From NCBI GenBank assembly GCA_030682075.1, contig JAUXRH010000171.1, positions 1 to 43,970 of the forward strand: a stretch of 43,970 nucleotides of DNA, in the 5' to 3' direction. The stretch is from Nitrosomonas sp. (lineage in GTDB: Bacteria > Pseudomonadota > Gammaproteobacteria > Burkholderiales > Nitrosomonadaceae). The position numbers were made by a program, and so were the translations under genes. The notes beneath the pieces were generated by a model, which was not told where the DNA came from, made no database searches, and saw only the letters and a list, made by a program, of their open reading frames with translations. Positions 13,152 to 32,446 of the stretch are shown one piece after another; positions within the stretch are counted from its first letter, which is position 1; each line of letters starts with the position of its first letter.

Positions 13152-13190
13152 GCTGCTTGATCGTGTCGAAAATTTTAAAGGAAATATTGA

Positions 13191-13586
13191 CTACCACTCC
13201 TCATAGAATGAGCCATCCAAAGCCTGTCCAGAGTAACCACTATGCACATCGGAGATACCATCCTCTTCTTCATTAAAAGGTGGCACTTCTACCCATGTCA
13301 TATTACTTTCTGTTAATGGGTCAATCGGAATACTCCGTATATAACGTCTTTCAACCAATTCCTCAAGTGTGATCGGGTAGCTACCCATATCTGAATAAAA
13401 GTTGTCAATTGCATCACGCATAATGCTAAGGTCTTGCCTAAGCACCGTTTCTTTGGCTTTCTCAATTGAATTAAAATAACGCGGCGCAACAATACTAAGC
13501 AAAGTTGCAATAATCGCCATCACAACCAATAATTCAATTAATGTAAAACCCTTGTACTTATAGAGCTGATGCATTTTAATCACCAT
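13191..13586 (-). CDS. Type II secretion pseudopilin, GspG/PulG-like
   Basis: KGFTLIELLVVMAIIATLLSIVAPRYF...DNFYSDMGSYPITLEELV. Confidence 0.9.
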   Translation of the reverse strand: MVIKMHQLYKYKGFTLIELLVVMAIIATLLSIVAPRYFNSIEKAKETVLRQDLSIMRDAIDNFYSDMGSYPITLEELVERRYIRSIPIDPLTESNMTWVEVPPFNEEEDGISDVHSGYSGQALDGSFYEEW

Positions 13587-14098: not shown

Positions 14099-16350
14099 TG
14101 AAGATTAATACTGGCTGCAGATGGTAACGTAACTTCTACCGACTCCCCAGTCTCGCTGTCCTCTGATGAACCACTTTGTATTGAGATTTCAGTCGTTCCG
14201 GCGTTTACTGCAATAACCTTAAACCGTAGTTGTTCCGTTCTCCCAGACTTACCCTCTTTCCCCAGCTTAAAGAAACGGGTTCCTGAGTTTTCCCCATCAT
14301 CCAGCAATTCGAGCATGCCGGAATCGTAATTCAACTCAACGTCAGAAGTAAGCGAAGCTTTCGCACCAACCAGCCCAACCCGGATTGAAAACTCTTTACC
14401 TAACGATACATTTGATGGTGCCTGCAATGTGATTGTGGGTGATGATGCGGTATTTCTTGCAAAAGGGTTCGGTGTCATTTCAGACCTATTGGCTAGCGAT
14501 AAAGTTTCCGCTGTTCTGAAGCCGGATACGCCCCCGCCTGTACCAGCGGAGGCCATTGAAAGTGATTTTGCGGCCGTCTTGCCGATTGTTGCCGGTAATT
14601 TGCCAGCATCATTTGCTGTCCCGAAATGAAATCCACTTTCCAGATTGGTTGGTTGTGTAATATTTCTTATAATACGCGGCGTAATCAGCAAGACAATTTC
14701 AGTTTTGGTTCGCTTTATCGACTGATTGGAAAGCAATCGGTCAAGTCCTGGAATATTCAGCAACCCAGCCAGTCCACTAACACCCCGCGTATCCCGATCA
14801 TCGATTAATCCGGCTAAAACTTGCGTTTCACCGTTCCTCAGTGTTAACAAGGTTTCTGCCGTACGGGTTCCGATCTTAAAAGCGGTTGCACCGTTCGGCC
14901 CGGGCACTGAGCCAAGATTATTACTTGCTTCAAGCGCAACTTTCATCGTAATGTCATCATTTAGACCAATGATCGGCTCAACATCTAACTTTAACCCGAT
15001 ATCGATAAAACTTGCCGACGCTGCAGAGCCAACATTAGCCGTATTGGTCACGGTAAAGATAGGTTCTCTTGTACCAATATGGATTTTTGCAGTTTCACGA
15101 TTTTTAACTCGGATCCGTGGATTTGCAAGCACATCAGCAAATGTAAGACTCTGTTCGAAATCGATTCTGGCCTGGCTGTCCATAGTAAAGCTCTTAAGGC
15201 CGTCAAATCCAAACTGATTTAGCGGCAACACGCCCGTTACTCCGGGTACAGCACTGAACGTAGCAGAGGTAGGTAATTTTGGACCGAGCGCGAAATTGTT
15301 ATCGCGCTGGATTTCCAATACAACAACTTCCAACATCACTTCAGGTTCAGGCAAATCATTTAGTGCAACCAGCCGTTCAACCAGACGTATTGCTTCTGGC
15401 GTGTCTCGCATAATAAACAGATTCAAGCTTTCATTGACATAAATATCCTTTGCTTTTACCAACCCCCGAACCATGGCAACCATCTGTTTGACATCGGTAT
15501 ACGCAATATGAAAACTACGCACCATCAACTCCTGATACTCATTCTGCTTGGCTGGGGTGTTGGGATAAATCAGCAATGAATTATCATTGAGCGCTTTGTG
15601 CGCCAATTGATTCGTCATCAACAGCAATTTAAGCACATCCTCAATACTATTATCACGAACAAAAATAGAGATCTTTGTTTCTTGCCGGACATCTTTATCA
15701 AAAATAAAATTAATCCCCGCCGTGCGTGCAATGATCTCAAACACAGATTTCAGGTCAGTATCTTTAAATTCCACGGTGAGTGGTTTTTTAAACGCGGTGG
15801 CCAAGGTTAATCCTAAATTTTCAGAACGTGCAATCAAGGTACTGATGTATTTTATTAATTGACGCGCTTCACGTTGCATCGAATTTTCCTGCAGCACCGC
15901 TCTCACTGCCGCCTCCGCACCGGCCAAATCATCATTCGCCAATAATTCTTTAGCATAATTAACTGAAGCAATATGATGGCGTTCCAGACTCAATGCCCCC
16001 AAGCCTGCGTTGGCACGTTCGTTTAGTGGCGCCAGTGCCAGCACACGGTAATATTTTTGTTCTGCGGAATCCAGATCGCCCGACAATCTGGTTTCCTCTG
16101 CGTCGAATAGTAATTTTCCGATTACTTCCTCACGTTGGCGCGCAAGTACCGTGCGGATCTCTTTGTTAGCCGGCTCTTCACGTGCTGCCTGCTCCAAGCT
16201 TTGCAGACCAGACTCGAACTCACCCTGAGCGATCAACTGCTGCCCGTCGGTAAATGCGATGTTCCTTGTCGAAAATGTTTTATTATTTATCGCACATCCA
16301 GCAATTACAGCCAACAGCATGGCAATGACAACATATCTCCAGATTCTCAT
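14095..16350 (-). CDS. Secretin (GspD-like) lipoprotein with N-terminal TPR region and C-terminal cohesin-like domain
   Basis: Lipobox IAGC; TPR-like repeats; secretin core (VLANPRIRVKNRETAKIHIGTREPIFT...LLTLRNGETQVLAGLIDDRD...VLLITPRIIRN); C-terminal PTITLQAPSNVSLGKEFSIRVGLVGAKASLTSDVELNYDSGMLELL. Confidence 0.9.
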   Translation of the reverse strand: MRIWRYVVIAMLLAVIAGCAINNKTFSTRNIAFTDGQQLIAQGEFESGLQSLEQAAREEPANKEIRTVLARQREEVIGKLLFDAEETRLSGDLDSAEQKYYRVLALAPLNERANAGLGALSLERHHIASVNYAKELLANDDLAGAEAAVRAVLQENSMQREARQLIKYISTLIARSENLGLTLATAFKKPLTVEFKDTDLKSVFEIIARTAGINFIFDKDVRQETKISIFVRDNSIEDVLKLLLMTNQLAHKALNDNSLLIYPNTPAKQNEYQELMVRSFHIAYTDVKQMVAMVRGLVKAKDIYVNESLNLFIMRDTPEAIRLVERLVALNDLPEPEVMLEVVVLEIQRDNNFALGPKLPTSATFSAVPGVTGVLPLNQFGFDGLKSFTMDSQARIDFEQSLTFADVLANPRIRVKNRETAKIHIGTREPIFTVTNTANVGSAASASFIDIGLKLDVEPIIGLNDDITMKVALEASNNLGSVPGPNGATAFKIGTRTAETLLTLRNGETQVLAGLIDDRDTRGVSGLAGLLNIPGLDRLLSNQSIKRTKTEIVLLITPRIIRNITQPTNLESGFHFGTANDAGKLPATIGKTAAKSLSMASAGTGGGVSGFRTAETLSLANRSEMTPNPFARNTASSPTITLQAPSNVSLGKEFSIRVGLVGAKASLTSDVELNYDSGMLELLDDGENSGTRFFKLGKEGKSGRTEQLRFKVIAVNAGTTEISIQSGSSEDSETGESVEVTLPSAASINLQ

Positions 16351-16925
16351 CGAATGTTTCCTGCCATCTGATTATTAATAGTAAGCGTTTGTTTTGTATT
16401 GAGCGGCAAATAGGTAAATGTAACAGCTTCGTCATTCACCGCATCTATTCGATACTGGTTATCGATATGACCCCCCAATTTGGCAATATGATTTTCTCCT
16501 GACTGGGAGAGAAAAACCCATGTTTCATTTTCTGCAATGGCCTTGCCAATGTATTTGAACGGCAATGGTGGCGGGGTTGGGGCTGGCGGGGGCGCAGGAG
16601 GCTGAATTTCCTGCCGAACTATCGTCGCTTGCGGCAACTCTAGTCGGGCATGCTGAGGCACCCACGAAGTCGATTTAAAAAGTTCACCTGCTTTAGCGTT
16701 AAATTTTCTTTGCCCCAGTTGATCAATCGCCAGATACTCAACCGTATTTCTTTCATTATTACGTGCTTGCCCAGATGCAACCCTTGTTGGCTGCGCAGTG
16801 GGTACGGAATCAATAATCGCTTCTTCCTCCTCCTCTCCAACCCATACGACCGCAAGCAATGTTGCCAATAGGGCGACTCCCAGTAATGTTTTGCGTTTCT
16901 TTTCCGCACTATCCATGCGTATCAT
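16347..16925 (-). CDS. Small inner-membrane/periplasmic secretion-module protein (PilP/GspC-like position; 'secretion system X' type)
   Basis: One TM segment, Pro-rich linker (PPAPPPAPTPPPLP), then a small beta domain (FKYIGKAIAENETWVFLSQSGENHIAKLG); lies between PilO-like and secretin genes. Confidence 0.65.
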   Translation of the reverse strand: MIRMDSAEKKRKTLLGVALLATLLAVVWVGEEEEEAIIDSVPTAQPTRVASGQARNNERNTVEYLAIDQLGQRKFNAKAGELFKSTSWVPQHARLELPQATIVRQEIQPPAPPPAPTPPPLPFKYIGKAIAENETWVFLSQSGENHIAKLGGHIDNQYRIDAVNDEAVTFTYLPLNTKQTLTINNQMAGNIR

Positions 16926-17509
16926 TCGTCCAGGTAAAGAACAATGTCAAGACGCACTTCAAGCTGCTCAGTTCTCACATCCTCACGCTTAATCATAATG
17001 CCTGTTATCGCCATCGCGGGTACCGCAAGAAGCGCATCCGCAATGAATGCACGTACTTGTGAATATCTTCCACGGATCGGAAGCGTCATTTCATAACGCG
17101 TCAATCTTCCCCCTTTTTCGTGTACTAAACGATAATCGCTACTGTTGATCTCCACTCCTTGTTTCTTTGCAACAAGTACCAGCTCTCTAATCCAGAAGGG
17201 GGATGAATCAATGCGAGGGAAAAATTCATAAAATTTTTGTAATGCTTGATCGTCACCCATCTTTTTTCCCGGGCCAGACGCTTGATACGATGGGGACTGT
17301 ACACGCATTATTTCTGCTCGTTCCTTAAGTGCCTGTATTGTTGCGTCTTGTGGCAACACCGCAGCAAGAAAAAAAACGATGGCAACCGCCAACAAGCCCA
17401 CACCAATTTTTCCAATGGTGCCCAGGCGCGCTACCTGCCAGCGTATCTGCAACCATATAGCTTGCAAACGCACCGGTATTAAATCATTTCTCAAAATGTT
17501 TGAACCCAT
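16922..17509 (-). CDS. PilO/GspM-like assembly protein
   Basis: One TM segment; position in a pilM-pilN-pilO-like order; R-x-S/PIRGRYSQVRAFIADALLAVPAMAITGI. Confidence 0.7.
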   Translation of the reverse strand: MGSNILRNDLIPVRLQAIWLQIRWQVARLGTIGKIGVGLLAVAIVFFLAAVLPQDATIQALKERAEIMRVQSPSYQASGPGKKMGDDQALQKFYEFFPRIDSSPFWIRELVLVAKKQGVEINSSDYRLVHEKGGRLTRYEMTLPIRGRYSQVRAFIADALLAVPAMAITGIMIKREDVRTEQLEVRLDIVLYLDE

Positions 17510-18036
17510 TCTGCGGTGACAAGAAAAACAATGGGTCGTTGGGGGTTATCCAGTTTTATTTTATAATTAACCAAATGCGCATTTTCAAAAATCAGCTCCC
17601 GCTCCAATGCTTCAACAAAATCAAGCAAGGCCGACAAATCCTTGGCTTCACCGCCAATTCGGATAGTACGGTTAGCAACGTTTGGCTGCAGCGATAACAG
17701 TGCGACTTCCTCATTGGCGGCAAATTCAACTGCGTCAAAAAGCGCTTCCCAAGGTAAATTAATCTGCCCAATAACCTCGCTGGCTTTTTTTATTTCCTGG
17801 CGGATTTCTTGGCTCACTCCGCGCTGATTAGATGTGGATGGCCTTCGCGGTGATACGTTATGCTGCTGTTTTTCAATACGCGCAACACGGGTTTCCCAAT
17901 AATCCACTTTCTCCATGGACGACGTAAATTGATATAGTATCCCGACTAAAGTGAGCAGGCCTAATACTAACAATGTAGTATCAATCGCTTGTGATTGCTG
18001 TCCAGAGTAAGGGAAACGGAGATTCAGGCGACGCAT
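17491..18036 (-). CDS. PilN/GspL-like assembly protein
   Basis: MRRLNLRFPYSGQQSQAIDTTLLVLGLLTLVGILYQF; PilN-type topology. Confidence 0.7.
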   Translation of the reverse strand: MRRLNLRFPYSGQQSQAIDTTLLVLGLLTLVGILYQFTSSMEKVDYWETRVARIEKQQHNVSPRRPSTSNQRGVSQEIRQEIKKASEVIGQINLPWEALFDAVEFAANEEVALLSLQPNVANRTIRIGGEAKDLSALLDFVEALERELIFENAHLVNYKIKLDNPQRPIVFLVTAEWVQTF

Positions 18037-18860
18037 GAATCCGCCTCACCACTTGCCCTGACAAAAGAAGGATAGTGTGCTGGCACCGATAGGTTATCAG
18101 CCGATAACGGAATCATTCTCCAGCCACAATTCTCTGGCAGTACCAAATCAGGATGTTCCGGCGCAAATACACGAACTTCCTCTACGGCCTCTTTATATCC
18201 AGAAAAAATTGCTTCCTGATCAAGCGCCATAAGTAGTTCATCCGCCACACCATGCAATACTTTCTGATTACGTATGCCTTGCCAGACACCATTCACCAAC
18301 AAGGCGATACAAATACGTCCCGTCTCGATTAGTACGAAATATGTGCGCTTTTCATCAAACAATTGCTGCCATTGATCAAAAGCTGATGCCAGATAAGGCG
18401 TTATGCCCCTGAGCTTTATTCTGTAACGTATCGCCAGTTCTTGCAATCGTGTCAGTAAATCACGTGTTATTGCGGCACAAATTGCGCCGCTGGATGGGTT
18501 CCAGGCGCTTATACTAAGCACCCATTCATCAGTCCGTTCAGCATAAATTTCATGCATACGGAAAGTGGCGTAAGCATAAACTTCATCGGGAGCCGTAATT
18601 TCCGTCTGGGGTGGCAGGGTAACATATCGAATAAAGTGGTTAGAGAGGGTGACCATCATCTCGGTACCCTCTGCTTCTTTTACCATGTGTTCTAATTGAA
18701 GCAAGGGCGGTTCCCAGACAGGCTGATCTGGATCGCGCGTGCAGAGTCCCGTAATTCCAGGTGCCGATATGGGCTTTAACCGCCGGGATGTGCGGACTAA
18801 ATCTACACGCTCCGGCGCAAAGAAAACCTGAATTTGATCACGACGCCACAATGGTGACAC
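18024..18860 (-). CDS. PilM/GspL-cytoplasmic-domain-like protein
   Basis: Position between GspE-like and PilN-like genes; actin-like fold not verified. Confidence 0.55.
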   Translation of the reverse strand: MSPLWRRDQIQVFFAPERVDLVRTSRRLKPISAPGITGLCTRDPDQPVWEPPLLQLEHMVKEAEGTEMMVTLSNHFIRYVTLPPQTEITAPDEVYAYATFRMHEIYAERTDEWVLSISAWNPSSGAICAAITRDLLTRLQELAIRYRIKLRGITPYLASAFDQWQQLFDEKRTYFVLIETGRICIALLVNGVWQGIRNQKVLHGVADELLMALDQEAIFSGYKEAVEEVRVFAPEHPDLVLPENCGWRMIPLSADNLSVPAHYPSFVRASGEADSCVA

Positions 18861-20532
18861 GATTGGCCTCCTCTAAACTCGTCAGTCCATCTCTGACCAT
18901 ATCTAATGCGCCCTCACGTAAGAAGTGGGTGCCATTGTTTTTAGCCGCTTCTTTTATGCGGCGGATGGGTTCCTGCGCAACAATAAGTTCACGGATTTCA
19001 TCATTTAAAATTAATATCTCTGCAATTGCGTTGCGTCCCCGGTAACCACTGCCCCGGCACTGTCCACAGCCTCTCCCGGCGCGAAATTTAAAATTGACCG
19101 CTCGTTCGGAATTTATTCCAGATTCAGCGATTAGCGCATCATCAGGACGCTCCTCCACGGCACAATGTGGACACAGCAAACGCACCAATCTCTGTGCGGC
19201 GATACCATTTAACGCGGAAACGAAGCTATAGGGATCTACCCCCATGTGTGAAAAACGGCCAATCACATCGAATACATTATTGGCATGTACCGTTGTAAAA
19301 ACAAGGTGTCCAGTCAGTGCGGCCTGTATTGCAATTTGCGCGGTTTCAGAGTCACGAATTTCACCCACCATGATTTTATCTGGATCATGACGTAAAATCG
19401 AGCGCAAGCCACGTGCAAAGGTTAACCCTTTTTTCTCGTTAACCGGTATTTGCAGTACACCAGGCAATTGATACTCGATAGGATCTTCAATGGTAATAAT
19501 CTTGTCATTACCCTTGTTAACCTCAGATATTGCAGCATAAAGCGTTGTTGTTTTACCGCTGCCCGTAGGACCCGTAACCAACAACATGCCATAGGGTTCT
19601 GAGCTGAGACGACGCAAAGTCGCTATTGCGGCTTGATTGAAGCCAAGCTGATTTAATGTTAAGCCATCGACATGATCGGAAAGTGCCTGTCGATCAAGGA
19701 TACGCAACACCGCATCTTCGCCAAAAATACTCGGCATAATCGATACGCGAAAATCAATTTCTCGCCCTTGTATCGAAACTTTAAAGCGGCCGTCCTGTGG
19801 CACGCGGCGTTCAGCAATATCCAGTTCCGACATCACCTTGATGCGAGAAATCACTTGCTCTGCCAGATCTGCGCCCTTCATCACACCAACGGCTGTCAAT
19901 ACACCATCAATTCGATATTTGATGGATAAAGCCCCCGTCACCATTTCAAGGTGAATATCACTGGCTTGGGATTTATGCGCATCATACAACGTGGAATGTA
20001 CCAGCCGCACCACCTGACTGGTACCTTCATTGATCGTTTTTAATGAAAGGTCTTCAATCCCGCTTTGTATCACATCTAGCTCAGCAGAAGATAAAACATT
20101 ATCCATCGCACGCATTGTTTTTTCCTGCTGCGTGAAAAAAGCGCTTAAATCCGCAGGATGCACCAAATGCCATGTCACCCCCATAGCAAAACGCTCTTCT
20201 GCCCATGACCGCAAATTGGATGAAAATGGATTACTCACTGCCAACACGTATTCTTCTTCTCTTTGAAACAATGCACACTCATGCATAACCGCTTCAGCAA
20301 AAGGCAGCCTATCGAATGACGGCGTAAGGACTCGCAACGCTCCCATGTTTAAAACAGGGAGGTGAAGCAACCGACCCAGTGCCTGGATGAGTACGTCTGG
20401 CGCATAATCGCAAATTTCTTCCAGCGCCTGGATTATCGAAATACCCTGTTTTAAGGCCTCCTGGCGCGCCTCACCCAGCTGCCTGATATCAATCGATAAT
20501 TTTTTTGTTGGCTGTGTGGATGTTTCGATCAA
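18838..20532 (-). CDS. Type II secretion/type IV pilus assembly ATPase, GspE-like
   Basis: GMLLVTGPTGSGKTTTLYAAISEVN...ITIEDPIEYQLPGVLQIPVN...LRHDPDKIMVGEIRDSETAQIAIQAALTGHLVFTTVHANN; CPHC...CGQC zinc motif. Confidence 0.96.
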   Translation of the reverse strand: MIETSTQPTKKLSIDIRQLGEARQEALKQGISIIQALEEICDYAPDVLIQALGRLLHLPVLNMGALRVLTPSFDRLPFAEAVMHECALFQREEEYVLAVSNPFSSNLRSWAEERFAMGVTWHLVHPADLSAFFTQQEKTMRAMDNVLSSAELDVIQSGIEDLSLKTINEGTSQVVRLVHSTLYDAHKSQASDIHLEMVTGALSIKYRIDGVLTAVGVMKGADLAEQVISRIKVMSELDIAERRVPQDGRFKVSIQGREIDFRVSIMPSIFGEDAVLRILDRQALSDHVDGLTLNQLGFNQAAIATLRRLSSEPYGMLLVTGPTGSGKTTTLYAAISEVNKGNDKIITIEDPIEYQLPGVLQIPVNEKKGLTFARGLRSILRHDPDKIMVGEIRDSETAQIAIQAALTGHLVFTTVHANNVFDVIGRFSHMGVDPYSFVSALNGIAAQRLVRLLCPHCAVEERPDDALIAESGINSERAVNFKFRAGRGCGQCRGSGYRGRNAIAEILILNDEIRELIVAQEPIRRIKEAAKNNGTHFLREGALDMVRDGLTSLEEANRVTIVAS

Positions 20533-21713
20533 TTGATGCTTCCTGCCAAGTCAAATATTGGCATATACATGAGGATAATAATGCCGCCAATTACCGTGCC
20601 GATGACCGCCATCAAGATGGGTTCAATCAGTTTGGTTGTCCATTCCACCCAGCGCGCAATCTCTTCATCATGAAAATTGCCAATCCGTTCCATCATATCT
20701 CCCATTAATCCTGTTCTTTCGCCAACACGCAACATACGATTACCAACCGCTGTGGTTAATCCTTCCATCTCCATTGCGCTGGAAATTGTCCTGCCTTCAC
20801 GAATATGCCTGGCCGCCGCTTCTACGCGTGGACGAAAATGGGGTTGCAGCAAACCACTGACCATATCCAGAGCCTGAGTAATCGGGATGCCGCCACGTAA
20901 CAGCATGCCTAATGTCTTATAAAAACGAGCCAGCTGATAAACGCGCATATGTTCCCCAACCGCAGGAATACGCCATAATTGCTGTAATATATACGCCCGA
21001 AATGCGGGCCGAGTCACGCTATAAGTAAGCGCACTAAAAACGATGATTACAATGGCTGTTAATTCCCAGCCACGCTCATGAACAAAATGTCCCCACTTAA
21101 TGAGCAGCACAGAAAGCCAGGGCAAATCGGTGCCAATATCCTCATAAATTGCACTGAATTTCGGCACCACAAATACCAGCAGGAACACGGAAACTAATAG
21201 GCCAATGACCAGTAGCAAAACTGGATAAATTGAAGCCCCAACCAGTTTTTTGCGCACTAAATCCATCTGCGTTTGATACGTAATAAAACGCGTCAAAGCT
21301 TCGGCTAGATCGCCTGTCCGTTCGCTTGCCCGAACAGTTGCAATATACAATGCCGGAAACGCCCGGGGACAGTCTTGCAATGCACGTGAGAAAGTAACCC
21401 CTTCATACAGCCGCGCCAGTAAATCCTGAATGATTTTACGGATACTGACATCCTGCTCCTTATCCACCAACGTCTCGATACTCTCCACCAGGCTGAGCCC
21501 TGCCGTTAATAGTGAAAGTAATTCCTGGCTAAAATGTACTAAAGGAAAACGGGTATTCGATTTTAGCGACCAACCGGTAACGCTGCGCCGCACACTCAAT
21601 ACCATGCCGCCTTGCTCAGTGACTTGAAGACGTGCCTCCTCCTCACTGTTTGCTTCCAGTTTGAGCTTCACTGTACCTTGCCCGGAAAGTACCGCTTTCA
21701 CTTCATAACGCAT
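20529..21713 (-). CDS. Type II secretion inner-membrane platform protein, GspF-like
   Basis: FSQELLSLLTAGLSLVESIETL...ARFYKTLGMLLRGGIPITQALDMV; three TM segments. Confidence 0.95.
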   Translation of the reverse strand: MRYEVKAVLSGQGTVKLKLEANSEEEARLQVTEQGGMVLSVRRSVTGWSLKSNTRFPLVHFSQELLSLLTAGLSLVESIETLVDKEQDVSIRKIIQDLLARLYEGVTFSRALQDCPRAFPALYIATVRASERTGDLAEALTRFITYQTQMDLVRKKLVGASIYPVLLLVIGLLVSVFLLVFVVPKFSAIYEDIGTDLPWLSVLLIKWGHFVHERGWELTAIVIIVFSALTYSVTRPAFRAYILQQLWRIPAVGEHMRVYQLARFYKTLGMLLRGGIPITQALDMVSGLLQPHFRPRVEAAARHIREGRTISSAMEMEGLTTAVGNRMLRVGERTGLMGDMMERIGNFHDEEIARWVEWTTKLIEPILMAVIGTVIGGIIILMYMPIFDLAGSIN

Positions 21714-21722
21714 CGCGACAAC

Positions 21723-22154
21723 TTACCAATTGGTAATATCCGCCGCTTCACCATCGCCACCCGGTTGGCCGTCTTTACCATACGAAAATAAATCAAATTC
21801 TGTATTATCCCCTGGATATTTATAGACATATGGATGCCCCCAAGGATCTGCAGGTGGCGTTTTGGAAAGATAAGGTCCATGCCATCTTGGTTCGTTATTC
21901 GGGCTGGACATCAAGGCTGCAAGTCCATGCTCGGTAGATGGATAGCTACCCATATCTAAACGATATTGGTGAAGCGCTTTCTCAAGAGAATCAATTTGAG
22001 ACTGAGCCATTCTAATCTCGGATCTGCCGACCTGTGAGAAATATTTTGGTCCAACATAGGCGGCCAGTAAACCGATAATAACCATGACAACCAGTAATTC
22101 AAGTAGCGTAAATCCGCGTGCAGCTTGCATTTTTTGTGGTATATACGAATGCAT
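21723..22154 (-). CDS. gspG: Major pseudopilin GspG
   Basis: RGFTLLELLVVMVIIGLLAAYVGPKYF...LDMGSYPSTEHGLAALMSSP...DPWGHPYVYKYPG...FDLFSYGKDGQPGG; start chosen at MHSYIPQ. Confidence 0.95.
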   Translation of the reverse strand: MHSYIPQKMQAARGFTLLELLVVMVIIGLLAAYVGPKYFSQVGRSEIRMAQSQIDSLEKALHQYRLDMGSYPSTEHGLAALMSSPNNEPRWHGPYLSKTPPADPWGHPYVYKYPGDNTEFDLFSYGKDGQPGGDGEAADITNW

Positions 22155-22310
22155 TATTTTTGCCCCCTTCGCCTTGTATTCGTTCTTTATTTGGCTGAAA
22201 TTAGTAAAGTACATGAAAAAGGTAATGAATGTAAAAAGAAATAAAATAAATAGGAAAGGAAACAGATAAAATAATTTGCGCCATAACCCATCTTCTATGC
22301 ATCAGGACGC

Positions 22311-25300
22311 TTAGAAATTGATACGAGCGCCCAGGTTAAATTGTCGCCCCCTTTGAAATTGTCTCGTTATTTCATCACCCTGCGTTACTGCGACCTTGTC
22401 ATCAAATAGATTCTGCATGGTAAGCCGCATGGATAGCCACTTATTTACATTCTGGTTTAAAACAAAGTCCAGCTGATTAAATGGTTGCTCATATTTATCT
22501 GGCGCGCCCAGCAATCCTACGGCAACGATTCGTTCACTGGCAATATTGTACAGGAGCGTTGCTTGCGTCCCCCAGGCTGGATTGGCATACCCTAGCTGAA
22601 AATTTAAAATTTGTGGGGAATGTCCCTGTAACCGCCTGCTCGATGTCGTCTGTGCTTCCAGATTCTTGGCATTAAGTAGAACGCTTGATTCTGACCAGGT
22701 GTAATTTCCTCCTGCAAAAAAGTTTTCTAACGAAGGATGGATTAAATCCAGGTTTTTTAATAAATCTACCTCAAACCCATAAACATTTGCTTTATCTGCA
22801 TTTTGATAAGTTTGCAGCCCGGCAGTTCCCGGCAATATAATCTGTTCAATCGGGTTGGTTAGATCTTTCCAGAAAAAACCGGCCAACAGATTCTCAGTCG
22901 ACGAAAAGTAATACTCCCAACGTAAGTCTAAATTGGTAATGTCCGTTTGGATTAAGTCGGGATTACCTGTCGTTTCCTGATTGGTGCTGGGATCGGTAAA
23001 TGGTGCGGGGGATAGTTCCCTGAAATCTGGCCTGGAGATTGTTTGGCTAAATCCCGTTCGTAATTGTTGCCTGTCAGAAATCACCCAGGTAGCCGCAGCA
23101 GATGGCAATCGATTGATTCTATCAATGACTGAAGTAACCGGCGTATTCGAATTGGCAACCGATTGAAACGTTTCAACACGTTGATTATTATCTTCCCAAC
23201 GCATGCCGCCACTTACTCTCAATCTTTCAAAGAATGACAAATCCAGTTTGCCGTAGTAAGAAAATAGATCTTGTGACGCATTATAGCTATCCGTCGGACG
23301 CGTGGTATCACGCAATTGAAACCCGTTTGCGCCAATATTAGTCGGCCGAAGAATCGCTTCCAGTGAAGATTGTCCCAGGACTGCTGGATTTCTCGCATCG
23401 TCCCCTACCGGGGCAAAACTGAAGCGTTGAATGGAAGAGTCTCTGGTTTTATTCTGATTAATAAAGCCACCACTGAGCGATGCTTGATAGTCTGGAGAAA
23501 ACTCCAAAGGTAGTTTTGTATCCATGCGCCAGCTTTGATCTTTATCGACCAGATCCGCGAATAAAGTCTGATTACTGTCAGCGCGTCGAGAAAAAAGGAA
23601 ACTACCCGTGTTATCTGCATCATAACGATAATCTCTGGTTTTGGGTTCTTCTCTTGTTGCGATTGCATTGGTATATAACCAATCAACTTTCAGGTCTTTT
23701 GCCCAATCTAAGCGGTGCTCGCCTCCAATCTGCTGCATAAACAATTGATTGGAAAATTGCCTCAGGCGTGTTCTGCGAATATCCGCTGTTTCAGCATCGG
23801 TAAATCCTTGACTGACCCTGGCTTCATCGATTGTCTGTCTGAGAAACATCGTTTTAGAAAAAATACGATGCTTATCTTGATATTCAGCTTCTACTGCTCC
23901 ATAACCGTTCAATTGTACTTCACTTAATGAGCGCTTGACATCGAAATCCTGAGTTAATCTCAAACTATCGCTACTGCCCGACGCGGCAAACTCCCGGTTA
24001 ACTTCATTCTGGTTCCTGAATTCCTGCCTCCAGCCTCCTGCTGCAATGTAGCCAACCCTGAAATCGCCGAGATTAAAAACATCACCGATGGATGTTTGCA
24101 GCCTGCCATCAGGCCCTCTTTTATTCTGCTTCACATCCCAGTTATCCGATAAATCTTCTCCCAAATTCTCTAGCTGAGCAGGTGACAGCCCATCAGGATT
24201 AAAAATTGTTTTTGGCTGTAAGGCTTGTCCATTTTCTGTTGCCGCCGCGATCGAATCGGGCAATGCGCGCGTACCATCATCATATCCCAGAAAATCAGTA
24301 TTACCCCCTTTATAGGTTAAGGCATTCTTAAAAGATGAGAGACTGTTATAGCCGGTTTGTCCTTCTATATTAAAGAAAAATTCATCAGGAATTCCTCGGG
24401 TACGCATTTCCAGCGTACCGCCTGCAAATTCCCCCGGGCGATCAACCGAATAGGTTTTCTGCACCAGGACACTTTCCAGAATACTGGTAGGAAAAAGATC
24501 TAATGGCACAACACGTCGGGTAGGATCAGGACTGGGAACAGAGGCGCCATTCACCAGTGTGGATGAAAAGCGTTCGCCTAATCCACGTATAAAAATAAAC
24601 TGGCCGCCAACCAGAGTCAGACCAGAGGCTCTTCTCAAAGCGCTGGCAACATCAGAGTCCCCACTACGGCTGAATTGTTCAGCACCCAGGATAGTGGTTA
24701 CTTCTGCTGACGTTCTCTGTTCCTCAATAACGGAAGTCAGCGTTCCCGCCAGGTACGGCTCCAGTACGACATATTCTGCCAACTCAACACCTGCGGGTGT
24801 TAAGCTAAAGGTAAGTTCCGTACGCTGGTCTTTTACAATGTTGACATCATCTCTTGTTTGACTGCTGTAAGCAGAGTGCAATAACGAAACGCTATAACTT
24901 CCAACAGGCGCCTCAAATTCTATTCGCCCTTGCGAATCCGTTCTGAGCTGTTGTCGCAAACCGCTCAAAAAGACTTGCACATCTTTAATCGGCTTTTGCG
25001 TTTCAGAAGACAAAACTTGTGCAATGAGGGTGCCATTACCTTGCATCTGCGGTTTTTCAGCTAACGCGGCATAATCTGGATTAGTGCCTTCCACTGAACT
25101 TTCAATATTGAGCAATGGTTTTCTGCCATCGGCATAAAAAGTTAACAGAATTTGCACATTCTCTGCGGGACGGAGCGGCAAATCAAAGTCAAATTGCTGG
25201 TCTTTTGTTTTGATCGTTATCTGATATTGACCGGGCGGTAATTTTCCAGCCACACTGCCATTTGCATTGGATTTAATTGAAGATTTACCGTCAGCCCGCC

Positions 25301-25511
25301 AATTAAAAGTTGTTGGCGATGATGAATTCATTAAGCGCGCATTTGATGTAGCGGATGTGTCGCTGTTGATTAACAACTCTGCATCAGCAATCGGGAATCC
25401 ATTCTGGAACAGGTGAATTGAAAATTCCGCTTTTTTATTATCTCCCCACACAAGAGAGCTCGCCAGGACTGAAGCAAGAAAAATTACTGAATAAAGAGAG
25501 AGTTTTTGCAT
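22311..25511 (-). CDS. TonB-dependent outer-membrane receptor with N-terminal carboxypeptidase-regulatory-like domain(s)
   Basis: Signal peptide; Ig-like/CarboxypepD_reg segments (GTLIAQVLSSETQKPIKDVQVFLSGLRQQLRTDSQGRIEFEAPVG); plug (GDSDVASALRRASGLTLVGGQFIFIRGLGERFSSTLVNGASVPSPDP); C-terminal barrel ending GRQFNLGARINF. Confidence 0.93.
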   Translation of the reverse strand: MQKLSLYSVIFLASVLASSLVWGDNKKAEFSIHLFQNGFPIADAELLINSDTSATSNARLMNSSSPTTFNWRADGKSSIKSNANGSVAGKLPPGQYQITIKTKDQQFDFDLPLRPAENVQILLTFYADGRKPLLNIESSVEGTNPDYAALAEKPQMQGNGTLIAQVLSSETQKPIKDVQVFLSGLRQQLRTDSQGRIEFEAPVGSYSVSLLHSAYSSQTRDDVNIVKDQRTELTFSLTPAGVELAEYVVLEPYLAGTLTSVIEEQRTSAEVTTILGAEQFSRSGDSDVASALRRASGLTLVGGQFIFIRGLGERFSSTLVNGASVPSPDPTRRVVPLDLFPTSILESVLVQKTYSVDRPGEFAGGTLEMRTRGIPDEFFFNIEGQTGYNSLSSFKNALTYKGGNTDFLGYDDGTRALPDSIAAATENGQALQPKTIFNPDGLSPAQLENLGEDLSDNWDVKQNKRGPDGRLQTSIGDVFNLGDFRVGYIAAGGWRQEFRNQNEVNREFAASGSSDSLRLTQDFDVKRSLSEVQLNGYGAVEAEYQDKHRIFSKTMFLRQTIDEARVSQGFTDAETADIRRTRLRQFSNQLFMQQIGGEHRLDWAKDLKVDWLYTNAIATREEPKTRDYRYDADNTGSFLFSRRADSNQTLFADLVDKDQSWRMDTKLPLEFSPDYQASLSGGFINQNKTRDSSIQRFSFAPVGDDARNPAVLGQSSLEAILRPTNIGANGFQLRDTTRPTDSYNASQDLFSYYGKLDLSFFERLRVSGGMRWEDNNQRVETFQSVANSNTPVTSVIDRINRLPSAAATWVISDRQQLRTGFSQTISRPDFRELSPAPFTDPSTNQETTGNPDLIQTDITNLDLRWEYYFSSTENLLAGFFWKDLTNPIEQIILPGTAGLQTYQNADKANVYGFEVDLLKNLDLIHPSLENFFAGGNYTWSESSVLLNAKNLEAQTTSSRRLQGHSPQILNFQLGYANPAWGTQATLLYNIASERIVAVGLLGAPDKYEQPFNQLDFVLNQNVNKWLSMRLTMQNLFDDKVAVTQGDEITRQFQRGRQFNLGARINF

Positions 25512-25871: not shown

Positions 25872-27041
25872 TCAGGTGCATTGCCATGGTTCGGTTTTAC
25901 AAACCTCCATCAATCTCCGCAGTTCTGTCCCTCTTCTGAATAATTCCGCATCCTTCAAATGATCCAAATGTTTATTTGCTTCCGGGAACCGACCGCTCCA
26001 GAACAGGGCATAAGCGAGTGCATAACGAACACTTTCATCATCCAGCAAACCCATTCGATACAAACTGGATTCCATATTTGCGGCACGGTCAAATTGCTTT
26101 AATGCCAGTAGAATGGATAATCTTTGCTTGAATTTAACTTTCTGATCCCGGATACTTTCATTGAGTGTTAATGCTTTATGGAACCTGCCTGCTCGACGAT
26201 AAACTTCAGCCGCTTCAGACAACAATTCTGGATTTAAAATCGCGGCTTGCTCAAGAATGAATGCTGCCGCATTCAGCATTCCCTGGTCCAGGTAAGTATG
26301 TGCCAGAAGCTTGGCGACAACATCATTATTGGGAAATTGCAACCGGGCTATTTCCAGAATACTTAAAGCTTCCTGGTATTCCTTACTTAATCGAAGTGCA
26401 TTTCCAATCGCGACATAATCTTCTGCCGCTGCTCTGGATAATTTAAGATATTCTCTACCCAACTCGGCCGCTTGCTGATTTAATCCAAGTTGCACGAAAT
26501 AGAAAACTTTAAGCCTGAGAAAACGAAAATCAACCGGAAATAATTTCTGTCCTTCATTCAAAGTATCTATCGATTGCGTTGTCTCTTCCAGATGCCAATA
26601 AGACTGTGCCTTCATGGCAACCAGAGAAGGGTTATTCCTGGCATGCTCGGTCGCATTTTCAATCGCCCGAATAGTTTTCTGGTAGTCTTTCAGCGCATAA
26701 TAAGCCTGTGCCAGATACACAAAAATTACTTGATCCTGCTGCCCATTTTTAATCGCTGATTGCAGACTGTCTTTGGCTGCATCGAAAGCGTTCAGATTCA
26801 TATAGGCCAGCCCTTGCAAGGTATAAAATCTTGCCAGATCTGTTTTTTTGTCAGCCAGATTAACGCTCTCCAGCGCTAACAAAGCACGGTCATTATGGCC
26901 ATCCCTTAGCATCGCCGCTGCCAGCTCTATAAAATCTGTGGATTGTGGCATTTTCTCTTTGGCCCAGGCTGAACCAAAAAAGCATTCAAGCATGAGCATG
27001 ACAACAATAATCTTGATTCGCTTAGGTATAAGTTGCTTCAT
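25872..27041 (-). CDS. TPR-repeat periplasmic protein of TonB module
   Basis: Signal peptide plus TPR motifs; directly downstream of tonB in the run. Confidence 0.85.
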   Translation of the reverse strand: MKQLIPKRIKIIVVMLMLECFFGSAWAKEKMPQSTDFIELAAAMLRDGHNDRALLALESVNLADKKTDLARFYTLQGLAYMNLNAFDAAKDSLQSAIKNGQQDQVIFVYLAQAYYALKDYQKTIRAIENATEHARNNPSLVAMKAQSYWHLEETTQSIDTLNEGQKLFPVDFRFLRLKVFYFVQLGLNQQAAELGREYLKLSRAAAEDYVAIGNALRLSKEYQEALSILEIARLQFPNNDVVAKLLAHTYLDQGMLNAAAFILEQAAILNPELLSEAAEVYRRAGRFHKALTLNESIRDQKVKFKQRLSILLALKQFDRAANMESSLYRMGLLDDESVRYALAYALFWSGRFPEANKHLDHLKDAELFRRGTELRRLMEVCKTEPWQCT

Positions 27042-27065: not shown

Positions 27066-27704
27066 TCAGGACAAATCAAAACGAATCCTTTGTTTCGCCC
27101 AAACTTTAACGTTATCACCTTTATACTTGGCGGGCTCAAAGTGCCACGCACGCATTCCCTGCATGGCCGCATCATCAAAGATTCCGGAAGGATTCGATTC
27201 CAATACCTGCATCTGATTAACGGAACCATCAATATCGACCAGTATCGACAGAACGACATAGCCTTTAATACCCTTCTGTTTGGCTGAAGGTGGGTACCTG
27301 AACGCTCCCCTTGATACGGGCCTTGGCGGAACATCGACCAGATCTTCAGTCATTACCGCATGGCCTGCTTTACCAAGTAAGGCATCATCCAGGCCATTCA
27401 TGTCGCCATTATCAAAACCAAACAACCCCAGATCAATACCAGAAAGTGCCGTATTTAAGCCCTGGAATGGCGCTGGAGACTGCGGGCGAGCTCTCGGTGG
27501 CCGCTGCTCAACTTTTTTAATCTCCTTTTTCGGCTCCTGCTTTATCTCTTTCGTCATGCTGATTTCTGTCGCTTCAGGAGATGATTCTTTTTCAAAATTC
27601 CCTGCGTAGTGATTCATCACCAGCACCAGACCAAAGACCAGAATCGGGCCTAACAGCATCGAAATTACCGCCGCCCAGTGTTGATTAAATTTTTTAGCTT
27701 TCAT
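27066..27704 (-). CDS. tonB: TonB energy-transducing protein
   Basis: N-terminal TM; Lys/Pro-rich region; C-terminal RYPPSAKQKGIKGYVVLSILVDIDGSVNQMQVLESNPSGIFDDAAMQGMRAWHFEPA. Confidence 0.9.
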   Translation of the reverse strand: MKAKKFNQHWAAVISMLLGPILVFGLVLVMNHYAGNFEKESSPEATEISMTKEIKQEPKKEIKKVEQRPPRARPQSPAPFQGLNTALSGIDLGLFGFDNGDMNGLDDALLGKAGHAVMTEDLVDVPPRPVSRGAFRYPPSAKQKGIKGYVVLSILVDIDGSVNQMQVLESNPSGIFDDAAMQGMRAWHFEPAKYKGDNVKVWAKQRIRFDLS

Positions 27705-27711
27705 CTCTCGC

Positions 27712-28116
27712 TTACCCTGCCTCTTTTTTGGTTGCGACACCGACACTTTCTGCGCCTGCTAAACGCGCCTGATCCACAACTTCAACTAACTTACCTGCAG
27801 GAACGCCTTCATCGGTAACCACCAGGACCACTTTACTGGTTGAGGTGCTTAATTGATCGCGTAATTTGCTCTGAATGAGCCATAGACGTACGGGTTCACC
27901 GTCGATGTAGGTATCCCCATTGCGATCAATAAATAACCGGATTGCTTTACTCGAAGCGGCCAGCGCACTACTTGCCTTGGGACGCTCCAAATCCAGTTGC
28001 ATGTCTTTGACAAAAGTCGTCGTTACCATAAAAAAAATCAACAAAATAAAAACGATATCAATCATCGGTCCAATATCTATCGTTGCATCTGCTTCTATCG
28101 GTTCGTTATATCTCAT
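27712..28116 (-). CDS. exbD: Biopolymer transport protein ExbD/TolR
   Basis: DIGPMIDIVFILLIFFMVTTTFVKDMQLDLERPKA; start chosen at MRYNEP. Confidence 0.93.
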   Translation of the reverse strand: MRYNEPIEADATIDIGPMIDIVFILLIFFMVTTTFVKDMQLDLERPKASSALAASSKAIRLFIDRNGDTYIDGEPVRLWLIQSKLRDQLSTSTSKVVLVVTDEGVPAGKLVEVVDQARLAGAESVGVATKKEAG

Positions 28117-28739
28117 CCTGTGGTATTCCTCCTGGAGTAATGAACAACCGTCTGGCTGCACAACAGTTCTTTAACCTGGGAAAGATCCTTTTCAATTTGC
28201 TGCTGCTTTTTCTTTAGAATGCTATGGATGAGTAGTCCAGGAATCGCAACCGCCAAACCCATCTGGGTAGAAACTAATGCCTGCGATATTCCACCCGCTA
28301 TTCCACCGGATTGGGTAAAAAGCGACATCGTCGCTAACGAATCGAACGTTTCTATCATTCCAATCACCGTTCCCAACAAACCCAGTAAAGGCGAAATAAT
28401 GATGACAATTCGTATCAGCGTAGAAAATTTTCCAATTTCCTTTTCATAATTGTAAAAAGCCGCATCCAGATGGCGGCGCAGATTCCTGACACCGCTTTTC
28501 TTTAATTCGATGCCTTGCTGTACTGCCTGCGCTACAATATTTCTGGCTGATTTGTCACCATTTTCCTGGTAAAAACTCAGCATGTCCCGAACGCCCATCG
28601 ATTTGGGCTCTTTCATGAGCCAGAATCGATAACCCAGTCCATACCAAAGTAATAAGGCACAAACAAACAATGGCGGCATGACCATTCCGCCCGTATTGAA
28701 AAAATCCTTACTCAGAAAAATATAGTCATCAATATTCAT
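28113..28739 (-). CDS. exbB: MotA/TolQ/ExbB proton-channel family protein
   Basis: IVIIISPLLGLLGTVIGMIETFDSLA...GGIAGGISQALVSTQMGLAVAIPGLLIHSIL. Confidence 0.93.
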   Translation of the reverse strand: MNIDDYIFLSKDFFNTGGMVMPPLFVCALLLWYGLGYRFWLMKEPKSMGVRDMLSFYQENGDKSARNIVAQAVQQGIELKKSGVRNLRRHLDAAFYNYEKEIGKFSTLIRIVIIISPLLGLLGTVIGMIETFDSLATMSLFTQSGGIAGGISQALVSTQMGLAVAIPGLLIHSILKKKQQQIEKDLSQVKELLCSQTVVHYSRRNTTG

Positions 28740-28757: not shown

Positions 28758-30293
28758 TTAACTTATCTGGTTATTTAGCACCAATGGGTCACTGCTAACC
28801 GTTCGCTCCCCGGAATCATTCAGACTCGCCCCGCCCAGAAAGGCATTCGTAATTCTGAGCGCCGAATGTTCCATGTCGCGTTTAATATTTCTTGCCCAGG
28901 AGGCTAGCAAAGAGCCCAACAGTAAAGCGGGAATAGCAACCATCAACCCTAATTCCGTGGTGACCAGCGCAATGGAAATACCCCCGGAAAGTAATTTTGG
29001 ATCACCGGTACCAAACTCGGTAATCACATCAAATGTAGAAATCATCCCGGTCACAGTTCCCAGCAAACCAAGCAATGGAGACACCGATGCAATGACCAGA
29101 ATGGCCGATCCAAAACGATCCAATGGTCCTGATTCCTGCAATATTGCTTCATGAACGATACTTTCCATATGATCCCTATCATCTTTCAAGTGATGCAATG
29201 TCGCGGATAAAACACGGGTTATCGCAGATAAATTATCTTCAAAATTTTTCCTTGCTTCATCCAACCGGCCATCAGCAACCTGTTGTATCAGCCTTTCGGA
29301 TAACTGCTTTGTATTGGCGCTATTTGAGTACAGCAAAAACGTACGAATCAGGATAAGAAGTGCAGCAAACGCACCCAGTGCCACGATCACCCAGCCAATA
29401 GCACCACCTGAATTAATGATGCCCATCACGGTCTTTTCTGCAGACTCTTCAATTGCCGTCGTACGCGACTCAAATAAGAACAGCTTTAATATGTCCGGTT
29501 GCTGATTCTTGTCCAGCGCAATGGCCGTGTCCGCACTGGGTTGTTTCCATATTTTTAAATCACCGCCACCGGCTGGAACCAGACTACCGCTGCCTTCCTG
29601 ACTGACACCGTACGCGGCAATGTTCCCCAGATGAATAATGTTTCCCTGAGTTTGTTTGCCATCTTCCAGGAAAAAATTTCCCGGTTTGGACTGAACTGCG
29701 CCCAGCGCCTGTATCAGGAACAAGGCTTTTTTAAAGAAGAACCCTACTTTGGCCGGATCGTTACCCTCGGTATCTTTAATGGAAGGTGGTATGTCGATAT
29801 CATGATTCTTTAAGGTTGCCTCTGCCTGCGAATAGGTAATCTCTAAGACATCGCTGCGTTCGCTTACTGCCGCTTCAGCACGCTCTGCTTCGGCCAACTG
29901 CATACTTTGTTGATCGATTTTGGCTGAATTCATGACAGAATTCTGCTCAAGGCTGTTTATTTTTTTACTTAGCGCCTGTTCTTCGTTATTCGTGCTGGAT
30001 TTATATCTTATGAGCCGTTCATTCAGCTCCCGTTTCTGCGCTTCCAGAAAAGCATATTCACGTTTATAAGCCGTTTCCAGATTGATGGTTTCCTGATCCG
30101 ACGAACCCTGTTTTTGTGGGAGGGGTGTTGTGGCGCCTGTGGCTGCTGGCTTCGCATCCGGCAGTGGCACTGAAGCGTCCTGTCCCTCTATCTCCGGTGC
30201 CACTGTCGGCGCGGTTGCTTTGGGATTACCTTCAATGGCATTAGCCTGACTTATGGTCAGTAACAACATCGATATAAAAAATAGTTTCTTCAT
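28758..30293 (-). CDS. MotA/TolQ/ExbB family protein with long N-terminal periplasmic coiled-coil extension (TtpC-like)
   Basis: Signal peptide, coiled-coil region, then ASVSPLLGLLGTVTGMISTFDVITEFGTGDPKLLSGGISIALVTTELGLMVAIPALLLGSLL. Confidence 0.88.
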   Translation of the reverse strand: MKKLFFISMLLLTISQANAIEGNPKATAPTVAPEIEGQDASVPLPDAKPAATGATTPLPQKQGSSDQETINLETAYKREYAFLEAQKRELNERLIRYKSSTNNEEQALSKKINSLEQNSVMNSAKIDQQSMQLAEAERAEAAVSERSDVLEITYSQAEATLKNHDIDIPPSIKDTEGNDPAKVGFFFKKALFLIQALGAVQSKPGNFFLEDGKQTQGNIIHLGNIAAYGVSQEGSGSLVPAGGGDLKIWKQPSADTAIALDKNQQPDILKLFLFESRTTAIEESAEKTVMGIINSGGAIGWVIVALGAFAALLILIRTFLLYSNSANTKQLSERLIQQVADGRLDEARKNFEDNLSAITRVLSATLHHLKDDRDHMESIVHEAILQESGPLDRFGSAILVIASVSPLLGLLGTVTGMISTFDVITEFGTGDPKLLSGGISIALVTTELGLMVAIPALLLGSLLASWARNIKRDMEHSALRITNAFLGGASLNDSGERTVSSDPLVLNNQIS

Positions 30294-31060
30294 TTTCTCA
30301 AAGGATTGGGTAATTCAAAATAACCCTGACGTATCTGTTTCTTCAATGCATCAAATAGCTTTGCAATGCGCTCGACATCGCCTCTCGATTCGGCGATCTT
30401 AAATACCCAACCGCTCTCATTGATTTTTTGAGCCATTCCAGCTCGGTTATCTCTGGTTTGGAAGAAAAGAAATACTGATCCTAATTTTGCAATATCGGCC
30501 AGCACCTTTTCTCCGTTGAGTGAAATTGTTTGCTGGTAGATTCCGTTTTCCCTGCTCAACCGGATTTCATCTTCGAACAAAGACCACATCTGATTGGCTG
30601 CTCTGTTAGGGTCTACTAATTGATTAACCATATTATTTTCCAAATCATCAATTGCCTTGATGCGATCCTCCAGCTTGAAGGGAAAGCCCTGTAAAACATG
30701 CCGCTTATAATCCGCAAGTACCGCGAGTAAAACAGGCCTCAAGTTTTCGCCCGACATCTCTTCCTGCTTTGAGTCTGCGGTCACTTTCTCTATTGAATGC
30801 TGCAATTTTTCAAGGGCGATTTTTTGCCTTCTTTCTTCAACACTGATATCCGCTAACTGGGAAGATAAAGCCGACATCCTGTTGCCATGTTTTTCCTTCT
30901 CGATATCGAGCTGAGTCTGAAGCTCCTCAACTTCGCCACGAATCTTAGCGAGTGACTTGGCCAGATTTTCCAAGCTGTTCCCTAAAGCCACCGGTGCAAA
31001 CAGTAAGGCCAGCATCAACCCGATTATTATTGCAATTTTCGTTAACAGCGTTTCAAACAT
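30290..31060 (-). CDS. DUF3450 family periplasmic coiled-coil protein
   Basis: Signal peptide, coiled coil (LAKIRGEVEELQTQLDIEKEKHGNRMSALSSQLADI), conserved partner position upstream of the TtpC-like gene. Confidence 0.8.
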   Translation of the reverse strand: MFETLLTKIAIIIGLMLALLFAPVALGNSLENLAKSLAKIRGEVEELQTQLDIEKEKHGNRMSALSSQLADISVEERRQKIALEKLQHSIEKVTADSKQEEMSGENLRPVLLAVLADYKRHVLQGFPFKLEDRIKAIDDLENNMVNQLVDPNRAANQMWSLFEDEIRLSRENGIYQQTISLNGEKVLADIAKLGSVFLFFQTRDNRAGMAQKINESGWVFKIAESRGDVERIAKLFDALKKQIRQGYFELPNPLRK

Positions 31061-31156: not shown

Positions 31157-31190
31157 ATATTACTGGTCCAACATTGCAGTTTTATGACAC
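31157..31190 (-). promoter_or_regulatory. Candidate PhoB-dependent promoter upstream of the DUF3450/TonB run
   Basis: Minus strand GTGTCATAAAACTGCAAT (31190-31173) - 10 nt - TAATAT (31162-31157); resembles E. coli Pho box CTGTCATAAATCTGTCAT (14/18). Confidence 0.6.
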
Positions 31191-31253
31191 GCACCGGAAT
31201 ATTTCTTTTTTATGACACAACAAAATTGAATATCAGGAGAATTACACGGACCA

Positions 31254-31417
31254 GGAGCCTGTCGGACTCAAGTCAGCGTAGTAAACAACGTGGGGAAGCG
31301 AGGGCAGATTGGCCGGATTTTGAGGCGCATCGTCATGCTATACCGCGAAAAATTGAGGCAAAGTAAGCCGGTTACCTCAATTGCACTGTAGATCAACCTT
31401 AAGTCCGACAGGCTTCC
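31254..31417. repeat. MITE-like element 'C', copy 1 (~164 bp)
   Basis: Inverted termini GGAGCCTGTCGGACTCAAG / CTTAAGTCCGACAGGCTTCC; a second, inverted copy at 43833-43970. Confidence 0.85.
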
Positions 31418-31462
31418 AGATTAACGCGATGTTATTTCAGGTTCATGCAGTTAATGTAATAA

Positions 31463-31634
31463 GGGCACCTCTTTCAAGAAACAATTATAAGTTACTGATT
31501 ATAAAAAATATAAAAAATATAAAAAAGAAAAAAAGATCTATTTTACTAACTTCATCATGTTTCTTCCTGACGCCTTGCCGCCTCCGGCCGATTACTACGC
31601 TAAAAATCCATACTTGCGATTTTTAGCGGTGCCC
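31463..31634. repeat. MITE-like element 'B' (172 bp): arm plus deleted A core
   Basis: Termini GGGCACCTCT / AGCGGTGCCC; arm sequence recurs inverted at 40985-41110; right part GCTAAAAATCCATACTTGCGATTTTTAGCGGTGCCC equals both ends of element A joined. Confidence 0.85.
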
Positions 31635-31644
31635 AAAAAATAAT

Positions 31645-31678
31645 TTGTCACAAAATTGCAATATTACTTTTATATCAT
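31645..31678 (+). promoter_or_regulatory. Candidate PhoB-dependent promoter of phoB (autoregulation)
   Basis: TTGTCACAAAATTGCAAT (31645-31662) - 10 nt - TATCAT (31673-31678); 15/18 identical to the box at 31190-31173. Confidence 0.55.
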
Positions 31679-31720
31679 TCTTACTTTTTAAGAGGAAATT
31701 CCTTCTTATTGGAGTTACTG

Positions 31721-32446
31721 ATGTCTGCAACAGTACTGGTCGTGGAAGATGAATTAGCCATCCAAGCGTTGATTTCATACAATTTGCGAAATGCAGGGCT
31801 CGTTGCTTTATGTGCTAATAGTGCCGAGCAAGCTGTATCAATGGTTAACAATGTACTGCCTGATCTGGTATTGCTTGACTGGGGATTGCCAAATATGAGT
31901 GGCATTGAATTCGCGCGCATATTGCGGCGGGAAACACGGACTAAATCTGTCCCTATCATTATGCTGACAGCTCGTGATGAAGAAAATGACAAAATATTCG
32001 GGCTGGAAGTCGGCGCAGATGACTATATCACCAAGCCATTCTCGCCCCGTGAATTAATTGCCCGAATCAAGGCAGTATTACGCCGTCGTTTACCAGAAAT
32101 ATCTGAAGAAATTATTGTAGCAGGAGGATTAAAGCTCGACCCGATAACACATCGGGTATCTGCTTACGTGGATGGCAGTTTGTCAAAATCGATCGAGGTT
32201 ATACTTGGACCGACCGAGTTTCGTCTATTACATTTTCTGATGGCACACACCGAGCGGGTACATTCACGGACACAGTTACTCGATCGCGTATGGGGTGACC
32301 ATGTCTTTGTCGAAGATCGCACAGTGGATGTTCATATTCGCAGATTGCGTAAAGCGCTGGAAGTCTCTGGAAAGGATAGTCTGGTTCAAACAGTCAGAGG
32401 CGCTGGGTATCGACTTTCGGTTGAATCTATGGAAAACGCTGAATAA
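31721..32446 (+). CDS. phoB: Phosphate regulon response regulator PhoB
   Basis: MSATVLVVEDELAIQALISYNLRNAG...GADDYITKPFSPRELIARIKAVLRRR...GPTEFRLLHFLMAHTERVHSRTQLLDRVWGDHVFVEDRTVDVHIRRLRKAL; SD GGAG before ATG 31721. Confidence 0.92.
   Translation: MSATVLVVEDELAIQALISYNLRNAGLVALCANSAEQAVSMVNNVLPDLVLLDWGLPNMSGIEFARILRRETRTKSVPIIMLTARDEENDKIFGLEVGADDYITKPFSPRELIARIKAVLRRRLPEISEEIIVAGGLKLDPITHRVSAYVDGSLSKSIEVILGPTEFRLLHFLMAHTERVHSRTQLLDRVWGDHVFVEDRTVDVHIRRLRKALEVSGKDSLVQTVRGAGYRLSVESMENAE

Follow-up and report, generated by a model that had tools for sequence, protein, structure and literature searches.

The binding sites of PhoB have been mapped in E. coli (PMC10294691), and a structural model describes the action of PhoB and RNA polymerase at Pho promoters (PMC3348028). 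In Caulobacter crescentus, TonB-dependent receptors and the type II secretion system (T2SS) belong to the phosphate-starvation genes, and a receptor gene and a gene of a secreted protein adjoin the T2SS (PMC11208175; PMC2996285). In Flavobacterium, TonB-dependent transporters are induced by phosphate depletion, and secreted lipoproteins are encoded downstream of them (PMC8115612). No study of the Pho regulon in Nitrosomonas was found in the literature search.

The DNA considered here (43,970 nucleotides, hereafter the window) is contig C132 of a 2.73-Mb Nitrosomonas genome. A phoB gene and a run of TonB genes diverge in it from a common intergenic region, and a Pho-type box precedes each of them.

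Two promoters with Pho boxes

On the minus strand, upstream of the DUF3450 gene, the box GTGTCATAAAACTGCAAT (31190-31173) is followed by a 10-nt spacer, GTTGGACCAG (31172-31163), and the -10 element TAATAT (31162-31157). On the plus strand, upstream of phoB, the box TTGTCACAAAATTGCAAT (31645-31662) is followed by the spacer ATTACTTTTA, also of 10 nt (31663-31672), and the -10 element TATCAT (31673-31678). Both boxes are direct repeats with an 11-nt period and two half-sites; in relatives, three half-sites in phase are frequent. Such a distance of 10 nt to the -10 element is that of Pho promoters, in which a consensus -35 element is not needed. The boxes are identical to each other at 15 of 18 positions and match the E. 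coli consensus at 14/18 (DUF3450) and 12/18 (phoB). All these positions, spacers, -10 elements and match counts were given in an earlier note on this DNA, and re-reading of the sequence and recomputation returned exactly the same values. A weak additional match is located on the minus strand at 31217-31197 (10.1 bits, E 4.2), 28 nt upstream and off the 11-nt register.

When only E. coli data were used as the criterion (at least 12/18 consensus matches, a 10-nt spacer and TAnnnT), 3 sites were found in the window against 0.48 expected from simulation, and at 14/18 or more there was 1 site against 0. The bare observation is thus only moderately significant on this criterion, and the comparative evidence is decisive. 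A PWM trained on 78 sites of relatives (upstream of DUF3450, phoB and psiE genes), with the window left out, ranked the DUF3450 box first (30.1 bits) and the phoB box second (23.5 bits), the next site in the window having 15.0 bits; 0.03 sites of at least 18 bits are expected per 44 kb. With this score and its 12/18 match to E. coli, the phoB box is weaker than the phoB boxes of most relatives. In the whole genome, the exact pattern TGTCAYAAAAYTGCAAT was found at these two promoters and nowhere else. A profile scan of the same genome gave three strong matches, at the DUF3450 gene (E 6e-5, the best genome-wide), on contig C285 (E 0.0013) and at the window phoB (E 0.0013, the third), after which the fourth match drops to E 0.66.

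The GTDB loci matching the DUF3450 protein of the window belong almost all to Nitrosomonas. In a first set, consisting of 42 loci with a DUF3450 relative, the best site was taken upstream of each DUF3450, phoB and psiE gene, and nearly every locus had a TGTCAT-type box, 10 nt and TAnnAT. In a second set, which shared loci with the first and contained the window among its 30 DUF3450 loci (29 genomes), a site of at least 16.9 bits was present upstream of DUF3450 in 29 of 30 loci; in the single locus lacking it, the start of the protein could not be placed. When boxes were picked by the E. coli consensus alone and the -10 element was ignored, TAnnnT was found at spacing 10 in 31 of 50 cases, at spacing 21 (a shift of one 11-nt repeat in the upstream direction) in 22 of 50, and at any other spacing in no more than 6 of 50. 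A box of like geometry (12.5 bits) also precedes the DUF3450 gene of Methylomonas. Conservation of the boxes in orthologous regions had been proposed in the earlier note as a check of its reading, and the boxes are indeed kept across relatives. It may be concluded with high confidence that this region contains a divergent pair of real, conserved promoters activated by PhoB, in which the Pho box would replace the -35 element.

Genes behind the minus-strand promoter

The run behind the minus-strand box begins with the DUF3450 gene (30290..31060, PF11932) and continues on the same strand with genes of a long ExbB (28758..30293, PF01618), an ExbB (28113..28739, PF01618), ExbD (27712..28161, PF02472), TonB (27066..27746, PF03544) and a TPR protein (25872..27041, TPR families), all overlapping or abutting. 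The gene of a TonB-dependent receptor (22311..25511, PF00593 and PF07715) follows 360 nt further on. This order, from DUF3450 to the receptor, is kept across Nitrosomonas loci and in one Methylomonas locus; of 36 other Nitrosomonas genomes sampled, 28 have DUF3450. The data support Pho control of the six genes from DUF3450 to TPR. The receptor is likely to come under Pho control by read-through only, and it could instead have its own promoter. No excess of promoter-like or terminator-like sites was detected at 21600-31800.

By sequence, the receptor has no relative in the PDB. Downstream of it, 19 Nitrosomonas loci (among L003-L044) encode a secreted-looking protein of 532 amino acids without a Pfam family; the corresponding gene is divergent to the cluster in Methylomonas, and the copy of the genome studied lies at G000:C177:1374-2963. 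This protein also has no PDB relative by sequence, and its fold was predicted with low confidence, giving only weak matches to beta-helix structures. Another group of TonB, ExbB and FecR genes is located at 41126-43629 of the window, on the minus strand.

The T2SS genes (gspG, gspF, gspE, secretin and pseudopilin genes up to a TPR gene; 10647..22214, minus strand) are adjacent to the receptor here. One reading, which follows the proposal of the earlier note, is that the DUF3450 Pho box drives a long transcript across the receptor gene and on into the T2SS, all these genes being one phosphate-starvation unit. Such a transcript agrees with the common direction of all the genes from 31060 to 10647, with the 97-nt gap between the receptor and gspG, where no strong minus-strand terminator was found, with the same position of gspG directly after the receptor in L007, L016 and contigs of G010 and G015, and with the membership of the Caulobacter T2SS in the PhoB regulon (PMC11208175). 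Against it, nearly every Nitrosomonas genome searched has gspF of the window type, four genomes that lack DUF3450 among them, and the T2SS locus is mostly far from the TonB cluster across the genus. The adjacency of gspG and the receptor is confined to the window and the four relatives named, some of which are probably the same genomes. Moreover, the region upstream of gspG lacks a convincing Pho box: in the window its best site has 1.5 bits, and other Nitrosomonas loci score below 11 bits in all cases but one (G007, 17.0), while several of these upstream regions read as an ordinary TTGACC-17-TAnnAT promoter. A single phosphate-starvation transcript is therefore unlikely in our opinion.

As judged from these comparisons, the T2SS forms a locus of its own, which occurs genus-wide and is no part of the conserved Pho unit; its place next to the receptor gene, here and in a few relatives, is no more than adjacency. 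In this strain, read-through across the 360-nt and 97-nt gaps could bring secretion under Pho control; since in most relatives the T2SS lies elsewhere and lacks a convincing Pho box, such control is not supported as a conserved trait. Thus, from the earlier proposal that PhoB autoregulates and also drives the TonB and secretion genes, the parts on phoB and the TonB run agree with the conserved boxes, and the part on the T2SS, usually situated elsewhere and present even without the TonB cluster, is not supported.

The regulator and the intergenic region

The assignment of the boxes to PhoB is based on the genes that they accompany. The C285 match serves a gene of a PstS-like phosphate-binding protein (PF12849), and the strong profile matches in eight relatives include genes of PstS-like proteins (PF12849), OprO/P porins (PF07396), psiE (PF06146), phoB and DUF3450. 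The PWM, which had no pstS or porin site in its training set, gave 20-29 bits to pstS and porin sites, and it alone recovered the Pho box at a PstS-like gene adjoining the cluster in several relatives. A later profile, R1, was trained partly on pstS-like and phoR-linked phoB sites of relatives, and therefore the blind recovery is credited to the earlier PWM (DUF3450, phoB and psiE sites) only. Between phoB and DUF3450, relatives carry psiE and, in one case, a gene of glycerophosphodiester phosphodiesterase (GDPD). In the region of G028:C1:825540, a strong Pho box was noticed at an OprO/P porin gene close to phoR. These data agree with the reading of both elements as Pho-box promoters, the plus-strand one serving phoB and the minus-strand one the DUF3450/TonB run.

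More than 20 PhoB-like matches in the genome leave some room for another regulator of the OmpR family that would read TGTCAT-type direct repeats and use these boxes in place of PhoB. This is very improbable in view of the genus-wide presence of the motif at pstS, phosphate porin, psiE and phoB genes, i.e., at a Pho regulon by content.

psiE is absent from the intergenic region of the window, which holds repeats. The dispersed repeat CGCTAAAAATCCATAyTTGCGA has five near-exact plus-strand copies in the window (9111, 31598, 32614, 39069 and 40819), and the copy at 31598 is situated a short way before the phoB box. Between the promoters there is also an inverted GCCTGTCGGACT pair (31257 and 31413), with ends about 150 nt apart (31257-31414). 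The segment bounded by GCCTGTCGGACT, occupying the place where relatives often have psiE, is possibly a small mobile element. A similarity of the boxes arising by coincidence or from repeats spread through the intergenic region, to which the copy at 31598 and the inverted GCCTGTCGGACT pair might point, is hardly credible, as both boxes are outside the repeats and recur at the same spacing in species whose DUF3450 is only 63-73% identical.

Two types of phoB and known systems

The window phoB (31709..32446, plus strand; TIGR02154, 335.7 bits with a cut-off of 296.2) is of a long type: 7 residues are inserted in the DNA-binding domain. Its reading frame starts with TTG at 31709, and there is an ATG near 31721. 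The protein keeps D53, the phospho-acceptor, as well as the DNA-contact residues checked. No phoR adjoins this gene or is present elsewhere in the window, and the only PhoR of the genome is encoded on C154. A second phoB of the same genome (G000:C266:125-826, L114) is of a short type, 70% identical, and has no Pho box.

Typing of phoB in 36 Nitrosomonas genomes, including this one, distinguished a short, E. coli-like PhoB and a long PhoB, whose DNA-binding domain is extended by 6-7 residues; the counts given here are not phylogenetically independent. Both types were present in 22 genomes, only the long one in 10 and only the short one in 4, three of the latter being at most 83% complete. The short phoB is beside phoR in the stretch examined in 25 of 26 cases, and the remaining gene, that of the genome studied, is near a contig end. 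By PWM scoring of upstream regions, none of the 26 short genes has a Pho box (the best site has 3.7 bits), whereas 33 of 36 long genes have one of at least 15.4 bits. Of the three long genes below this threshold, two (G001 and G036) still have a recognisable TGTCAT repeat, with a different -10 element. Because of this distribution, autoregulation would belong to the long, insertion-bearing paralogue, the box-carrying one of the two in the genome. In the earlier note, autoregulation was attributed to the window phoB, whose box is present and conserved; it was overlooked there that this gene is an insertion-bearing paralogue with no adjoining phoR and that a second phoB, lacking a Pho box, is located on another contig.

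Short, phoR-linked phoB genes of some other genera of the order carry boxes (scores of 28.6 in L082 and 17.8 in L092), and this points to a loss of the Pho box from the short type within Nitrosomonas. The window phoB was also considered as a duplicate tied to the DUF3450 cluster. This was rejected: the insertion occurs in phoR-linked phoB genes of G011 and G018 as well as in genomes with a single phoB, and the split is therefore one between the long and short types. After removal of the insertion columns, the long PhoBs form one side of a branch with weak support (56/49).

D53 is replaced by G in the DUF3450-linked long PhoBs of L005, L010 and L028 (N. communis and two near strains), and the receiver of these proteins may be inactive. 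G018, which shares the L028 sequence and is the one genome of the 36 in which the DUF3450-linked long copy has lost D53, has a second long phoB beside phoR, with a box.

At promoters where the Pho box is next to the -10 element, phosphorylated PhoB usually acts by recruiting RNA polymerase. Most probably, the single PhoR becomes active when phosphate is low and phosphorylates PhoB, which would recruit the polymerase here in the same manner. Binding at 31645-31662 would increase transcription of the insertion-bearing phoB in a positive feedback, and binding at 31190-31173 would switch on the genes from DUF3450 through ExbB, ExbB, ExbD and TonB to TPR and, probably, the receptor behind them. The induced TonB machine would then energise the uptake of a phosphorus-bearing compound, as the putative substrate, across the outer membrane. 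Nitrosomonas thus probably makes this TonB uptake system when phosphate runs out. A two-tier phosphate switch, to which we give somewhat less than an even chance, can tentatively be proposed: the short, phoR-linked PhoB without autoregulation would provide a steady response, and the long PhoB would be an autoregulated, inducible amplifier coupled to the TonB uptake machine. The 10 genomes with only the long phoB imply that the long PhoB is capable of functioning with the only PhoR present.

Ammonia oxidisers are essential to nitrification, of which they perform a key step, in soils and waters as well as in treatment plants. The present data predict that, when phosphate is short, they produce an outer-membrane uptake system that is dedicated to this situation and powered by TonB. 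The autoregulatory Pho box on one of two phoB paralogues, and not on the phoR-linked one, is a natural case in which the split of paralogues makes a question of two-component circuit evolution testable.

Comparison with known systems reveals both common and distinct features. The TonB energiser with additional ExbB-like and DUF3450 parts is similar to Vibrio TonB2 with TtpC and a DUF3450-type protein; TonB2 is tied there to iron uptake (PMC6957404), whereas the Nitrosomonas run is under a Pho box. Two PhoB response regulators per genome are also known as PhoB1/PhoB2 in arsenite oxidisers, where they were reported with arsenite oxidation (PMC3834237); in Nitrosomonas, one of the two phoB genes adjoins a TonB system, and no arsenic genes were identified in this window. 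The 532-residue protein recalls, by analogy, CC0170 beside the Caulobacter receptor gene (PMC2996285) and the Flavobacterium lipoproteins downstream of low-phosphate TonB transporters (PMC8115612). The likeness to Flavobacterium is similarly one of analogy, its systems being SusCD-like complexes of Bacteroidetes. Unlike in Caulobacter, it is the DUF3450-ExbB-ExbD-TonB energiser that has the Pho box in Nitrosomonas, where the T2SS is usually a separate locus and lacks a convincing Pho box. As in the E. coli PhoB regulon, direct-repeat Pho boxes with an 11-nt period are located upstream of phoB and pstS, and phoB is autoregulated in E. coli and, as predicted, here. However, E. coli has one phoB beside phoR, and the putatively autoregulated phoB of Nitrosomonas is a paralogue without an adjoining phoR, which has its upstream region in common with a TonB operon. 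TonB receptors under Pho control are thus of a kind already known from Caulobacter and Flavobacterium. Two features appear to be new within the literature searched: Pho control of a TonB energiser in an ammonia oxidiser, and the division of autoregulation between two phoB types.
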